Of a stretch of 33,729 bases of DNA, positions 2,442 to 33,729 are shown in pieces. Under the pieces are notes generated by a model, which was not told where the DNA came from, ran no database searches, and worked only from the letters and a program-made list of their open reading frames with translations. Each line of letters opens with the position of its first letter. Position 1 is the stretch's first letter. The stretch spans positions 1 to 33,729 of the IMG/VR virus record IMGVR_UViG_3300030107_004787; one strand, given 5' to 3'. Source of the stretch: a virus. The position numbers and the translations under genes are program-made.

Positions 2442-2586
2442 TTTAAATAAAGAACAGCAAAAGCTTAATAAGCACCTATTTAAATTATTTGATGAAATTT
2501 TAGATAGTGGTAAGGTAAAAACTTCTAATAAAAATAAAAGTGAAGGAAAAAAACCAAATGGCAACAACAAAGAAAAGCGTATTTGA
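2434..2586 (+). CDS. Small Lys-rich protein (50 aa), overlapping both neighbours
   Basis: Its ATG lies inside the last codons of the HTH gene (ATGATTGA, 8-base overlap) and its end overlaps the start of the annealing-protein gene by 29 bases. The first 25 residues look helical and amphipathic (NKEQQKLNKHLFKLFDEIL); the rest is Lys/Asn-rich and probably disordered. I recognise no family. The tight overlaps favour a real, translationally coupled gene, but part of the frame lies in AT-rich sequence where chance ORFs occur. Confidence 0.45.
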   Translation: MIDLNKEQQKLNKHLFKLFDEILDSGKVKTSNKNKSEGKKPNGNNKEKRI

Positions 2587-3280
2587 AACACTTTCAAAAG
2601 TAGATGTTTCAGCGCATTTAGAAAAGAAGGGTCAGTTTACCTACCTTTCTTGGGCATGGGCAGTAATGACCTTATTGAAACATTACCCTAATTCAACATG
2701 GAAGGTTCACAAGTGGGGTGTTGATGGGTGCAGACAACCTTATATGAAAACTGAAGCAGGTGCATTTGTGCAAGTTACAGTTTCAGTTGAAGGTGTTGAC
2801 AGGACACAAGTTCACCCTGTATTAGACCATAAAAATAACACAGTAGCAAAGCCAAATTCTTTTCAAATAAATACATCAATTCAAAGATGTTTAGCAAAGG
2901 CAATAGCTTTGCAGGGTTTAGGTTTGCATATTTATGGCGGTGAAGACTTAGTTCAGTATGACCAATCTTCAGATATGCCATTTGCAGGCGCAAAGCCAAC
3001 AGTAAAAAAGAGTATTCCTAAAAATGGTGTAACTACTGGACACAAACCAAATATGAAGACAGGTGGTGATAAATCAACAATTAGTCAACATAACTATATT
3101 ATGAAACTAAGGGAAGATTTTATGAAATTGCTGGGTGACACAAAGGGTTTAGAATCGCTGTCTAAGATTGAAAAAGATTGTAAATTAGAAACCCTTAATG
3201 TGAAAGAAATGACCAAGCAACAAGCCAGTGACTACATTGAAGGATTAATTCAAACTTATGCCAAAGTCAATCCTGCATAA
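2558..3280 (+). CDS. Single-strand annealing protein, DUF1071/Sak3 type
   Basis: 240 residues from the ATG at 2558 (gaaggaaaaaaaccaaATG); an upstream GTG at 2540 is less likely. The N-terminal signature VDVSAHLEKKGQFTYLSWAWA followed by helix and NSFQINTSIQRCLAKAIALQGLGLHIYGGEDL is typical of the DUF1071 (Sak3-like) recombinases, which anneal complementary single strands in phage recombination and replication, in the same functional class as Red-beta and ERF. The C-terminal 80 residues form a charged helical tail. It sits with a NinG-like nuclease and a replication protein downstream, making up the DNA metabolism module. A strong RNA hairpin follows its stop (3300-3359). Confidence 0.85.
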   Translation: MATTKKSVFETLSKVDVSAHLEKKGQFTYLSWAWAVMTLLKHYPNSTWKVHKWGVDGCRQPYMKTEAGAFVQVTVSVEGVDRTQVHPVLDHKNNTVAKPNSFQINTSIQRCLAKAIALQGLGLHIYGGEDLVQYDQSSDMPFAGAKPTVKKSIPKNGVTTGHKPNMKTGGDKSTISQHNYIMKLREDFMKLLGDTKGLESLSKIEKDCKLETLNVKEMTKQQASDYIEGLIQTYAKVNPA

Positions 3281-3564: not shown

Positions 3565-3785
3565 ACAAGCCAAATCCTGAAGACCCTATCAATCCAAATT
3601 ATTACACAAAAGGCATAGAAGTTACAAGGTTTGCCCATTCTCATGGGTTAAGCTTTGCTGAAGGTAATGTTATTAAATATGTTGTAAGACACAAGCACAA
3701 GAATGGATTAGAAGATTTAAAAAAAGCCAAGAAATATATAGAATTACTAATAGAGAATGAAGAAAACAAAAAAAGCATTAAGTAA
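3561..3785 (+). CDS. DUF3310-family phage protein
   Basis: 74 residues from the ATG at 3561 (agaaagacaacATG). The pattern INPNYYTKGIEVTRFAHSHGLSFAEGNVIKYVVRHKHKNGLEDLKKAKKYIELLI is the compact helical core of DUF3310, often labelled nucleotide kinase in phages without good evidence. It lies in the replication module, and the next gene starts inside its last codons. Confidence 0.85.
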   Translation: MNKPNPEDPINPNYYTKGIEVTRFAHSHGLSFAEGNVIKYVVRHKHKNGLEDLKKAKKYIELLIENEENKKSIK

Positions 3786-5159: not shown

Positions 5160-5267
5160 ATGAAAAGCCATTGTTGTGATTCAGTTGCTAAAAATAACTT
5201 TGTTGAAGACAAGAAAGGTGTCTGTTCTGATTGCGGAAGAAAAACAACTTTTAGATTAGTTCCATGA
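5160..5267 (+). CDS. Mini zinc-ribbon protein
   Basis: From ATG 5160 the peptide is 35 residues with two metal knuckles: HCCDS near the start and CSDCG about 15 residues later, followed by RKTTF. This is a plausible four-cysteine zinc ribbon. The frame is open upstream to 5064 (67 residues, Lys-rich extension overlapping the previous gene by 80 bases); I prefer 5160, with gggaaaa upstream, but cannot exclude the longer form. The stop overlaps the next ATG (ATGA). Confidence 0.5.
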   Translation: MKSHCCDSVAKNNFVEDKKGVCSDCGRKTTFRLVP

Positions 5268-5626
5268 AAATTAAACACAGCCAAGAAGATAAATTATTTT
5301 CACTTTATATTAGAAACAAAGCCAAAGGTATTTGTGAACATTGTAAAAAATATAAGGGTGTTAAAAAGCTTCAGGCAAGCCACTTTATAGGTAGAAGGAA
5401 TAAAGCGGTTAGGTGGGATGAAGAAAATGTTAGCGCATTGTGCTTTACTTGCCACATGGTTATTATGACTGAGAATCCACACTACCACACCAAATGGATG
5501 AAAGAAAAATTAGGAAATAGATATAATGATTTAATAGTCAGGTCTAGGGAAATTAAAAAATGGAAAAAAGAGGATTTAAAAGATTTAAGATATGTCTTAA
5601 ATAAAGAATTAAAAAGAATAAGCTAA
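5264..5626 (+). CDS. NinG/Rap-like HNH-type recombination nuclease
   Basis: 120 residues. ICEHC (C24, C27), LQASHFIGRRNKAVRWDEENV with His40, and LCFTCH (C60, C63, H64) follow the layout of the lambda NinG (Rap) family: zinc knuckle, catalytic-type His in a beta-beta strand, second knuckle. Lambda Rap cleaves D-loops and Holliday junctions during recombination. The companion annealing protein is encoded upstream. The C-terminal 45 residues are a basic helix. Start overlaps the previous stop by four bases. Confidence 0.75.
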   Translation: MKIKHSQEDKLFSLYIRNKAKGICEHCKKYKGVKKLQASHFIGRRNKAVRWDEENVSALCFTCHMVIMTENPHYHTKWMKEKLGNRYNDLIVRSREIKKWKKEDLKDLRYVLNKELKRIS

Positions 5627-6207: not shown

Positions 6208-6407
6208 AATTTGAATTTATAGAAGAAAAAGAAAACCTTATAAAGGACACAGCATTAAGGGATATAAAGCTAGTGACTTCTTATATGATTTTAAAAAAAT
6301 ATGCTGTAGAATATTCTTATATTCAAAGGATAGAAATATTGTCAAAAGAATTCAATCTTAGTTTTCAGGGTGTTAAAAATATCATCCAAAAACTAAAACA
6401 TGAATAG
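6204..6407 (+). CDS. Small helix-turn-helix-like protein, last gene of the early operon
   Basis: 67 residues beginning in an ATGA overlap. Residues about 35-65 (VEYSYIQRIEILSKEFNLSFQGVKNIIQKLK) look like a helix-turn-helix of the type found in sigma region 4 and small phage regulators: helix, short turn at NLSFQ, recognition helix. A regulator of later transcription is a reasonable guess. A terminator follows at 6439-6474. Confidence 0.6.
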   Translation: MKFEFIEEKENLIKDTALRDIKLVTSYMILKKYAVEYSYIQRIEILSKEFNLSFQGVKNIIQKLKHE

Positions 6408-6438
6408 GCTGGCATTTGAAATGCTGGTTGGCAAGCAG

Positions 6439-6474
6439 AAGCCCTGTGAAACTGGTATGTGGCACAGGGTTTTT
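6439..6474 (+). terminator. Rho-independent terminator of the early operon
   Basis: CCCTGTG (6442-6448) pairs with CACAGGG (6463-6469), extended by a G-U pair and two A-U pairs, followed by TTTTT. It comes 30 bases after the last early stop codon. Confidence 0.85.
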
Positions 6475-6516
6475 CTGTGTAAACACCCCCCTTTGTAAAT
6501 TATTTGTAAAAAAAGC

Positions 6517-6545
6517 TTGACAAGTATTATTTAGATGTATTACCT
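6517..6545 (+). promoter_or_regulatory. Promoter of the putative large ncRNA (family member 2)
   Basis: TTGACA (6517-6522), 17-bp spacer beginning AGTATTATTTA, TTACCT (6540-6545) continuing TTAG. The block cttgacaagt and the TTACCTTTAG end are shared with 33100-33132. The -35 is perfect; the -10 is weak by E. coli standards, so an activator or a host-specific preference may apply. Confidence 0.65.
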
Positions 6546-6551
6546 TTAGTC

Positions 6552-7203
6552 TAGTTATTTGATATTGTTATAAAAATTTAAGGTTTTTGTTGGTGGTCAG
6601 GGTATGAGATTAATATTTTGGCTTTTAAACCAGCAAAAACAATTTGCAGAGTTTTTATTGGTTGTTCTTGTGTGGAAAATAACAAGTGCAGTGGATTCAA
6701 TAAAGTTAAAGGCTTGCGCTCTCTGCAACATGATTTTAAAGAATTGGTTAGCCGTAATAATCCCTAATGTTGGGCGGTGCCTTGAGAAGCTTGAAATGTA
6801 ATTTCGTACTAGGGTTGAATTATATAATAGAAACCTGAAACAGACTAACCTGTAAATTTTAGGGGGAATGATATTTGAAAATTTGGTTTGCTTGGTCTTG
6901 TTAGATTAAGGTCTTTATGACCCCAAGCCCTTAGAATATGCTCGTATAAAGAGCCAGTGACAAAAATGATTAGTAGGATGGAAGTGTTGTTTTTTGCCCA
7001 ACAATCCATTATCCATGTATTTTGTTTAGTGACTAGGGGATTATTTTGGTGGGATGATTGTGGAAGGCTGTGCATGGCAATAAACAATAGACAAAACTAC
7101 CCCATTTTGGAAAAATAACTGGGATGCCCACAAGTTCAAGCAGACTAACCCCCTTTCTAGGCAGTTTTACTTACTCTTTTTGTGCCTTTTTAGGGGGTTT
7201 TTT
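6552..7203 (+). ncRNA. Candidate large structured noncoding RNA (about 650 nt)
   Basis: The unit is bounded by a promoter (6517-6545) and a terminator (7147-7203) and holds no believable gene: the only frames (6604-6801 +, 6845-7087 -) lack ribosome-binding sites and phage-like composition. It is more G-rich than the other intergenic DNA of this genome and dense in helices: GCTTGG/CCAAGC (6890-6895/6923-6928) enclosing GGTC-tttat-GACC (6910-6922); GCTC/GAGC (6940-6954); a long stem GGA.TGGA.TGTTG / CAACA.TCCA.TCC (6976-7014); CTTGT/ACAAG (6668-6686); TGCAG/CTGCA; CCCATTTT...TGGG (7101-7123). Long-range GCTTGAA/TTCAAGC (6789/7135) is possible. Two related halves are visible. The size and phage setting recall GOLLD and ROOL RNAs, but I recognise no known family. 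Confidence 0.6.
7147..7203 (+). terminator. Terminator of the ncRNA unit
   Basis: AACCCCCT (7147-7154) pairs with AGGGGGTT (7192-7199); an inner stem AGGCA (7159-7163) / TGCCT (7183-7187) sits within; six T end it (7198-7203). An AGGGGG at 6861-6866 could compete for the CCCCCT arm. Confidence 0.8.
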
Positions 7204-7225
7204 GTTGCTTAAAATTAATTGTAAA
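7198..7225. repeat. Intergenic 28-bp direct repeat, copy 2
   Basis: Identical to 594-621. Here too it runs from the T-run of a terminator to just before a TTGACA promoter (7232). Confidence 0.85.
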
Positions 7226-7231
7226 TAATAC

Positions 7232-7261
7232 TTGACAAGTATAGTTTAAGCAGTATATATT
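7232..7261 (+). promoter_or_regulatory. Promoter for 7307-8378 (family member 3)
   Basis: TTGACA (7232-7237) with the family spacer start AGTATAGTTTAAGCAGT, then TATATT (7256-7261, spacer 18) or TATATA (7254-7259, spacer 16). This is the copy with the best -10. The predicted start near 7268 places the ATG at 7268 at the very 5' end, which supports using the downstream ATG at 7307. Confidence 0.7.
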
Positions 7262-7306
7262 ATAACCATGAATTTATTTAACAACACAAAAAAAGAGAGT
7301 AAAAAC

Positions 7307-7720
7307 ATGAAAAAAGAAAGAAAAATCAATAACAATGCACAGACAATTACACTTAGCCTTGACGATTTCAACAAAGGCACAAACAATCACCCCTGTATAA
7401 ACTTGGAAAAAAGCCTAAACACAAACAGTCTTTTTAAGGGACTTACTATAAAAGTAAATGATGATGTTACTGTTAGAATAACCACTGCTGAAGTAACAGA
7501 GCAGGTTTGGGTAAAGGTTAGAACCTCAAATGAAGACAATGTGCTTACTAAGAAAGTTAATGTTGACAGAAAAAATATATTTAAATCACTTCAAAAATCT
7601 CACAAAAACTATAGTGAAAAAAGTTATGGAAAGTGTGGGGATATAGAGGTAACACTAAAAAATAATGATGAGCATATTCAAGATATGAAGAAAATGAATA
7701 AGCTTTCTAAGGAATTTTAA
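7307..7720 (+). CDS. Unknown protein (137 aa)
   Basis: The start at 7307 is chosen because the shared initiation motif aaaaagagagtaaaaacATG precedes it; the in-frame ATG at 7268 would lie at the transcript start with no ribosome-binding site. The protein is Lys/Asn-rich, with a beta-strand-like centre (LFKGLTIKVNDDVTVRITTAEVTEQVWVKVRT) and a charged helical end. I recognise no family. It is followed by a hairpin and by another unknown gene in the same unit, separate from both the early and late operons. Confidence 0.7.
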   Translation: MKKERKINNNAQTITLSLDDFNKGTNNHPCINLEKSLNTNSLFKGLTIKVNDDVTVRITTAEVTEQVWVKVRTSNEDNVLTKKVNVDRKNIFKSLQKSHKNYSEKSYGKCGDIEVTLKNNDEHIQDMKKMNKLSKEF

Positions 7721-8429: not shown

Positions 8430-8430
8430 A

Positions 8431-8493
8431 TTTATATAATATTTTTATTTATATTTATATAATATTTATAACACTTTATTAAGTGTATGTAAA
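8431..8493. repeat. AT-rich region with direct repeats upstream of the late promoter
   Basis: TTTATATAATATTT occurs at 8431-8444 and again at 8454-8467. It is followed by TAACACTTTATTAA (8469-8482), which also occurs at 33015-33028 beside another AT-rich stretch. Almost no G or C in 40 bases suggests easily melted DNA. It could be a replication unwinding element or an UP-type promoter element; I see no iterated initiator-binding boxes to decide. Confidence 0.5.
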
Positions 8494-8505
8494 CTGTTTA
8501 AACAG
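8494..8505. promoter_or_regulatory. Perfect 12-bp palindrome, candidate operator
   Basis: CTGTTTAAACAG lies 18 bases upstream of the -35 of the late promoter. The same 12-mer occurs at 9117-9128 and 33110-33121, and its 10-bp core at 27060-27069. The position upstream of the -35 would suit an activator. Confidence 0.5.
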
Positions 8506-8523
8506 GTACTGAAACAAAGTTAC

Positions 8524-8552
8524 TTAACTTTATTTGTATTTGTTGGTATAAT
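8524..8552 (+). promoter_or_regulatory. Late-operon promoter (extended -10)
   Basis: TTAACT (8524-8529), 17-bp spacer ending TGG, then a perfect TATAAT (8547-8552). It differs clearly from the TTGACAAGT family used by the other units. The leader of about 120 bases to the first late gene (8553-8678) holds no ORF that I can support. Confidence 0.75.
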
Positions 8553-8678
8553 ATAGTATAGCCTATGGTAGGCTGACACTGCTAAAATAGGATTTAAAAG
8601 GCAAATAGGGCAGATAAACAAATAGCCAAACTAAACTAAGACTGCAGTCAAAGTTTTTAGAATAAAGGAAAGATAGCC

Positions 8679-8771
8679 ATGCCTTATGGTACATATCCCA
8701 AAAAACGCAAGAAAAAAACCAAAAACACCCCCAAAAAGGCTAAAAAGCGTAAAAAGGGTAGGTCATACTAG
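8679..8771 (+). CDS. Tiny very basic protein (30 aa)
   Basis: aaaggaaagatagccATG gives a strong start. After MPYGTYP the peptide is almost all Lys and Arg (PKKRKKKTKNTPKKAKKRKK), ending GRSY. Such protamine-like peptides next to terminase genes are plausible DNA-binding or packaged proteins. Eight bases separate it from the small terminase gene. Confidence 0.6.
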   Translation: MPYGTYPKKRKKKTKNTPKKAKKRKKGRSY

Positions 8772-8779
8772 CTAACTAT

Positions 8780-9124
8780 ATGAAAGACCCTAGTGGAAAG
8801 AATAAGCCTGAAAAGCAGGAAAGTAACAGGAATAATGATGGAACTTTTAAAAAGGGACAATCAGGCAATCCAAATGGCAGACCTAAGAAAGGGTTTGCTA
8901 TTGCTGATATATTAGATACCATTGGTGATAAATCATTTAGTAATGATAAAACATTTAAAGAAGCAATCTTGGAAAAGGTTTATGAAAATGCTTTGGCAGG
9001 TGACCTTAATAGTGCAAAGTTTATTGCGGATAGAACTGAAGGCACTGCATTGCAAAAGATGTCAGTGACAACAAATGAACCAGTACAGGTTTTAAAGATA
9101 GTTGACCAAAATGAAACTGTTTAA
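8780..9124 (+). CDS. terS: Terminase small subunit-like protein (DUF5681-type)
   Basis: 114 residues directly upstream of the large terminase. The motif FKKGQSGNPNGRPKKGF (about residues 24-40) is the hallmark of the DUF5681 domain found in small terminase-like proteins; helices follow (AIADILDTIG, FKEAILEKVYENALAGDLNSAKFIADRTEG). TerS recognises phage DNA and regulates TerL. The ribosome-binding site is weak. The stop TAA lies inside the palindrome CTGTTTAAACAG. Role assigned from motif and position. Confidence 0.8.
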   Translation: MKDPSGKNKPEKQESNRNNDGTFKKGQSGNPNGRPKKGFAIADILDTIGDKSFSNDKTFKEAILEKVYENALAGDLNSAKFIADRTEGTALQKMSVTTNEPVQVLKIVDQNETV

Positions 9125-32825: not shown

Positions 32826-33099
32826 GCCCAATTTTGCCTTCTCTATAAAATCCCAAATTTGCCCCAAATAGCCACTTTTTTAATTTTTTTGAATCCAAGT
32901 ATGTATAGATAACTTTACAACATATAAATAAACCTACCCCCCTTAAAATCAATTTAACCCAAACTTAATAATTTTAAGCAAAATCACTACTTTTGCCTTA
33001 ATTTTTTAAGTATTTAACACTTTATTAACTCTTAGCTAACAGCTATAAATATTATAAAAATAATGATATTTATAATAAATTATAATGTGTAAATAAAGC
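32826..33099. other. AT-rich intergenic region without a gene
   Basis: About 270 bases between the late terminator and the SprT promoter. It holds the right arm of the outer inverted repeat, long A/T stretches (33040-33090), and TAACACTTTATTAA (33015-33028) that recurs at 8469-8482 next to another AT-rich stretch. No ORF above about 15 codons with a ribosome-binding site. A replication origin is possible but I see no clear iterons. Confidence 0.55.
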
Positions 33100-33166: not shown

Positions 33167-33729
33167 ATGAAACACAAAACAAGAGAATCATGGATAAGAA
33201 AAGTAGCCATGATTTTAAATAAAAAAATCTTAGTGCCAAGTGTCTATCAGGCAATGCCATTAAGAAAAGTAAACAAGGTAGTAGTGTCAGGTGAAACTAT
33301 TGAAAAACTACCTATTAATAAAATACAATTTTCTTGCGCTTATTCACCCAATATGAGAGTTAGCCAAGTGGTTGTAGATAAACAAGTAGATGCTAAAGTT
33401 AGAGCCATTGGACAGTGCCATTATGATTATGAAGTTACTGGTGAAGCTAAAGGCAAATTCCTTACCAACATCTTTATTAGCCCAAAGCTAGATAATCCAG
33501 TTACAGTTGCAGAAGTTATCTTGCATGAGTTAATCCACACTATGAGCAAAGGACATGGACACAAGGGTGCTTTTAGATGGATTGGTGAAGCATGTGGTTT
33601 AGCATTTACACCAAAAGGTAAGGGTCACACCTATGCACTTCCTGAATTAAAATCTAAATTAAAAGATATTGTAAAGGAAGCAGGCACATACCCACACCAA
33701 AAGTGGATTCCAAATAAGAGTTACAAAAA
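33167..33729 (+). CDS. SprT-like zinc metalloprotein, N-terminal part (continues at 1-456)
   Basis: ATG 33167 follows the shared initiation motif gaaagagagtaaacaaATG. 188 codons lie here; with 1-456 (overlap removed) the protein is 305 residues. The zinc motif is HELIH (H120, E121, H124) with GHGHKGAFRWIGEACG just after, the SprT-like arrangement found in many phages. SprT/SPRTN-type proteins bind or degrade DNA-associated proteins; the phage role is not established. It has its own promoter and is separate from the early operon. Confidence 0.85.
   Translation, partial: MKHKTRESWIRKVAMILNKKILVPSVYQAMPLRKVNKVVVSGETIEKLPINKIQFSCAYSPNMRVSQVVVDKQVDAKVRAIGQCHYDYEVTGEAKGKFLTNIFISPKLDNPVTVAEVILHELIHTMSKGHGHKGAFRWIGEACGLAFTPKGKGHTYALPELKSKLKDIVKEAGTYPHQKWIPNKSYK
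33629..33729. repeat. Terminal direct repeat, right copy
   Basis: Matches bases 1-101 except for c at 33631 against t at base 3. See the left copy; together they show circularity. Confidence 0.95.

Follow-up and report, generated by a model that had tools for sequence, protein, structure and literature searches.

The DNA analysed here, a viral record of 33,729 nt referred to as the window, contains a promoter-to-terminator unit that likely encodes a large structured non-coding RNA, and this RNA probably represents an undescribed family of large structured phage RNAs. A candidate of this kind had been proposed in an earlier note on the sequence, and the proposal is supported by syntenic, frame-less homologues that also run from promoter to terminator (n=2), by compensatory changes in a long-range helix (P3) and by the lack of a match in Rfam. 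The features of the unit, all on the + strand, are the following.

6517-6546, +, promoter with TTGACA at 6517-6522, an 18-nt spacer and TACCTT at 6541-6546 (from an alignment of seven such promoters)
6553-7203, +, proposed non-coding RNA of ~651 nt, with its predicted start at the conserved AGTTATTTGATA (promoter spacing, no conserved frame)
6554-6560, +, 5' arm of the tentative helix P0, GTTATTT, with GAATGAT at 6866-6872 as partner (possible in 3/3 RNAs)
6564-6733, +, extra domain of ~170 nt, in the window copy only, with local helices 6583-6594/6629-6640 and 6644-6651/6721-6728 (alignment, inverted repeats)
6746-6850, +, 5' domain closed by P1, GGTTAG at 6746-6751 with CTAACC at 6845-6850 (shuffle test)
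6861-6883, +, invariant junction strand AGGGGGAATGATATTTGAAAATT, 23 nt, identical in 3/3 RNAs (alignment)
6883-6901, +, 5' arms of P3 (6883-6895) and P3b (6897-6901), giving 13 bp, a 1x1 interruption and 5 bp with 7130-7148
7009-7129, +, 3' domain, GCTGTGCATGGC ... ACTACCC ... AACTGGGATGCC, inside P3, present in the window and L014 and absent from L015 (BLASTN, 69% over 120 nt)
7130-7148, +, 3' arms of P3b (7130-7134) and P3 (7136-7148) (helix scoring, covariation)
7147-7203, +, two-stem intrinsic terminator with a T tail (inverted repeats, folding energy)

Since the ends of the record overlap, with positions 1-98 repeated at 33632-33729 with one mismatch, the window is probably a complete phage genome of 33.7 kb. 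Its genes include those for a terminase, a major head protein and a tape-measure protein, as well as a recombination module of a Sak-like single-strand annealing protein (2540-3280) and a NinG-like HNH nuclease (5264-5626). The terminase is 86-97% identical to that of a dozen IMG/VR contigs, most of them short, and its identity to sequenced phages is at most ~39%. From the metagenome origins of the contigs we infer a marine source for this group of tailed phages. A gene with a HELIH metallopeptidase-like motif spans the record ends (33167-33729 and 1-456); its counterpart in the related contigs L014 and L015 is found just upstream of the RNA unit. The early region is organized in small cassettes which are split by near-identical terminator and promoter modules (33098 and 7232 in the window, 879 and 1774 in the related contig L007, and also in L014 and L015), and in several of these modules a GTTTAAAC element, a possible operator, is placed between -35 and -10. 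Another conserved stretch, for the most part non-coding, is located at 8430-8780, immediately before the DUF5681 gene, which is followed by the terminase. It is present in about nine related contigs with 67-77% identity and probably serves the late operon as leader and promoter; its part 8535-8680 has an ordinary minimum folding energy (z +1.0). At 8681-8770, before the DUF5681 gene, there is a tiny ORF rich in Lys and Arg, MPYGTYPKKRKKKTKNTPKKAKKRKKGRSY, and a similar basic reading stretch occurs in L036 near 6560-6660.

The RNA unit is located in the longest gene-free stretch of the window, a gap of 860 nt (6408-7267; the next longest are 411 and 401 nt) between a gene for a 67-aa protein ending at 6407 and the next gene at 7268-7720. 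The promoter at 6517 and the two-stem terminator ending at 7203, both named in the earlier note, are indeed present, and the unit is real. The -10 hexamer, TACCTT, fits sigma-70 poorly, and the promoter is absent from the list returned by a sigma-70 consensus scan. The TTGACA promoter-like module recurs at 33098 and 7232 of the window and in L007, L014 and L015, with TTACCTTTAG found again at 33098 and in two L007 promoters. In the window, L014 and L015 (3/3) the predicted RNA start, at AGTTATTTGATA in each, is situated exactly 30 nt after TTGACA. At the other end, the terminator (7147-7199) folds with -20.7 kcal/mol (z -4.2), and the units of L014 and L015 each end in a strong terminator of their own. 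That the unit holds no credible ORF, as had been stated before, agrees with the absence of PHROG matches for the ORFs in the gap (65 aa, 53 aa and 80 aa antisense), none of which is conserved. In a six-frame comparison of the three units no frame is conserved, and the matching stretches contain stops and are in frames shifted against each other.

Homologous regions, the existence of which was a point raised by the earlier note, were found by BLASTN against related loci in L014 (3742-4258, ~517 nt) and L015 (3613-4066, ~454 nt), each between its own promoter and terminator. Both units are syntenic with that of the window, with the 67-aa gene before them and the terminase after them. The known members of the family are three (window, L014 and L015), all from metagenomic contigs and ranging from ~454 to 651 nt. 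Between L014 and L015, similarity covers the 5' domain, with 84% over 157 nt, and the final ~100 nt. The 67-aa gene is found in five genomes (window, L007, L014, L015 and the contig of L036), three of which have the unit (3/5). Pattern scans of IMG/VR, in which the invariant motif (as 20- and 16-mer), the promoter with the 5' end, the 3' domain pair, the terminator-promoter module, the terminase and the 67-aa gene served as queries, found the unit in L014 and L015 only; the other motif matches examined are chance matches, many of them coding. The contig L013/L062 begins inside an apparent terminator of the unit. Distant BLASTN of the three units against the INPHARED phages gave a single chance match of 33 nt, and a scan of genome contigs gave three matches, all by chance. 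A covariance model of the 5' domain of L014 and L015 finds the window copy (E 4.8e-5), mostly via the invariant motif; with this model, 20 records that are related or match the promoter yielded no further members.

The cassette organization of the early region makes it conceivable that the unit is a decayed protein-coding cassette, a moron unit that lost its gene and kept promoter and terminator. The neighbouring units are one- or two-gene cassettes between near-identical promoter and terminator modules, and L007, the closest relative having the region (terminase 94%), lacks the RNA unit and has small genes in its place. Against this, an invariant block of 23 nt, a fixed 5' end and a co-changing helix of 13 bp are not expected in decaying sequence, and no common frame is left among the units. 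Decay of this type is therefore considered highly improbable, and a gene for a structured RNA is the preferred reading.

Evidence for this reading comes from helix P3. Its arms are at 3893-3907/4136-4150 in L014 and at 3760-3772/3933-3945 in L015, and in each of the three RNAs P3 (13-15 bp) is the top-scoring long-range helix, with arm sequences that differ. It begins 0-1 nt after TTTGAAAA in all three RNAs and is followed in each by a small interruption and a further 4-5 bp. Dinucleotide shuffling gave P values of 0.006 (window), 0.001 (L014) and 0.006 (L015), or 6e-6 combined, for a test that, like that of the hairpin discussed below, was designed after inspection of the sequences. In an alignment of the 13 pairs, which was made by hand from the arms of three sequences and so favours pairing, 39/39 cells are paired and 6/13 pairs are changed on both sides; as controls, 2/500 shuffles were as good and slid registers were 28-47% paired. 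P3 thus shows, in three sequences, the compensatory base changes in a conserved helix that are looked for in a structured non-coding RNA gene. Because the sequences of P3 differ while all its pairs hold, a family of structured non-coding RNAs is supported. The same data bear on the possibility that the unit is a DNA-level element, such as a replication origin or a packaging or recombination site, that came to be placed between a promoter and a terminator by chance. Such an element would also be non-coding, with a conserved position upstream of the terminase and head genes. However, conservation starts at the predicted RNA start, the arms of P3, roughly 185-265 nt apart, stay complementary within a single strand although their sequence changes, and the extremes of GC skew are at 3644 and 25475, not at the unit. 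We give this explanation hardly any credence in comparison with an RNA gene.

Other helices are less well defined. At the position of P1, L014 and L015 have ATTGGGG/CCCCAAT, with bases different from those of the window, where a helix of at least 6 bp at the homologous place has a shuffle P of 0.017. P0 is invariant in 3/3 RNAs, so that it has no covariation, and contains three G-U pairs. The hairpin around the conserved loop AACTGCAGAA has different complementary stems in L014 (P 0.028) and L015 (P 0.0009), and a helix of the 3' domain, TTATTTT/AAAATAA versus TTGTTTT/GAAACAA, has one double change that is not significant by shuffling. Alifold was not significant on the aligned 5' and 3' domains (z -0.3 to -1.5) and was significant for the full-length pair of L014 and L015 (z -3.2). 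A column-wise count of compensatory helices on MAFFT alignments was not significant, in part due to misplaced gaps in the stems. The z values for folding of the whole RNA are -0.70 (window, not unusual), -3.1 (L014) and -1.5 (L015). The many local helices reported for the window can be written, but its folding energy does not set the RNA apart; because of this, counting helices in one sequence is not evidence, while the comparative data are. Some of the pairings suggested before are revised. TTAGTCT (6546-6552) cannot pair with AGACTAA (7142-7148) in the transcript because TTAGTCT is upstream of the predicted start, and the 3' arm of P3 already pairs with its 5' arm. The hairpin at 6890-6928 (GCTTGG/CCAAGC) and the pairing of 6789 with 7135 both compete with P3, which is favoured by covariation.

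On the basis of these features, an RNA would be transcribed under the promoter at 6517, stop at the terminator that ends at 7203, and be composed of a 5' domain closed by P1 and a larger second domain closed by P3, joined by the fixed strand of 23 nt. The outer domains change or are swapped between phages while the junction strand and the pairing of P3 are kept, and the gene would be a cassette open to exchange within the early region in this group of marine tailed phages. The RNA is presumed to be made from its own promoter during infection, and a trans-acting RNA is rather likely, more so than a leader, because each of the three phages has a different gene downstream of the unit. As a long regulatory leader, similar to an attenuator or riboswitch, the RNA could control read-through of the terminator into the gene at 7268-7720, since the unit is directly upstream of that gene and ends in a terminator. 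That gene has its own promoter at 7232, however, with 11/12 consensus matches, and a leader is considered quite unlikely.

For the trans-acting RNA, the proposed fold would expose the invariant AGGGGGAAUGAUAUUUGAAAAUU strand where the two domains meet. There the strand may bind a partner, either protein or RNA, or contribute to a tertiary core, and the variable domains would provide the scaffold. Exchange of the outer domains with retention of the strand and P3 suggests that the strand is a functional site. A scaffold or ligand-binding role through this strand, as judged from the sequence, is tentatively proposed with somewhat less than an even chance. A search for antisense targets of the strand gave none that is conserved in the phage sequences examined. 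Palindromes are conserved in loops, CUGCAG in the AACUGCAGAA loop of L014 and L015 and UGCA in the GUGCAUG loop of the window and L014, which is a weak hint of RNA-RNA contact between copies. An RNA-only homo-oligomer like GOLLD or ROOL, with the fixed two-domain junction, swappable outer domains and the palindromes as kissing contacts, could be envisaged but is unlikely. If it were formed, this would mean a separate origin of large self-assembling RNAs in an unrelated lineage of marine phages.

Few large structured RNAs have been described in phages, with functions that are unknown, and a family without a match in Rfam adds a tractable case: the phages are small and marine, the RNA is short enough to be synthesized and folded, and the invariant strand points to a functional site. 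The occurrence of the units suggests that a phage keeps an RNA of 450-650 nt as an exchangeable early cassette beside protein cassettes.

Among known systems, a tRNA nearby or inside the RNA (GOLLD) and tRNA islands nearby (ROOL) are common, though not obligatory, features. ARAGORN found no tRNA in the window, so the proximity to tRNA typical of GOLLD and ROOL is not seen here. The covariance search against Rfam 15 that the earlier note had called for gave no family match, including GOLLD and ROOL, for the window at the gathering threshold or for any of the three members at E<=10, with chance hits only. This is consistent with a new family, and the suggested membership in GOLLD or ROOL is not upheld. 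The unit could also be a catalogued large RNA, such as GOLLD or ROOL, that has diverged beyond the reach of covariance models. Features in common would be the phage origin, a length of several hundred nt, a conserved core with variable periphery and an unknown function; in view of the lack of matches and of a nearby tRNA, such membership is very unlikely. The HK022 put RNA, a short antitermination RNA that acts in cis on its own polymerase, is similarly a structured RNA encoded by a phage, but the transcript of the window is longer and is predicted to end at its own terminator.

GOLLD and ROOL are phage and prophage RNAs which were recently shown to build RNA-only cages (PMC12286853). Like ROOL (Rumen-Originating, Ornate, Large), the family described here is phage-encoded and structured, has no ORF and is of unknown function, and it is similar in size to a ROOL example of 659 nt (PMC12286853). 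It differs from ROOL in having no Rfam match, no tRNA island and members that range from ~454 to 651 nt, and the architecture of invariant junction strand and P3 is its own. The similarity to GOLLD is that of a large phage-encoded RNA with one conserved and one variable part, and a marine GOLLD example exists; GOLLD is often >800 nt, with the 3' region as the part that is universal (PMC12286853). In the window family, by contrast, constancy is seen at the 5' end, in the central strand and in P3, and the 3' domain is absent in L015.
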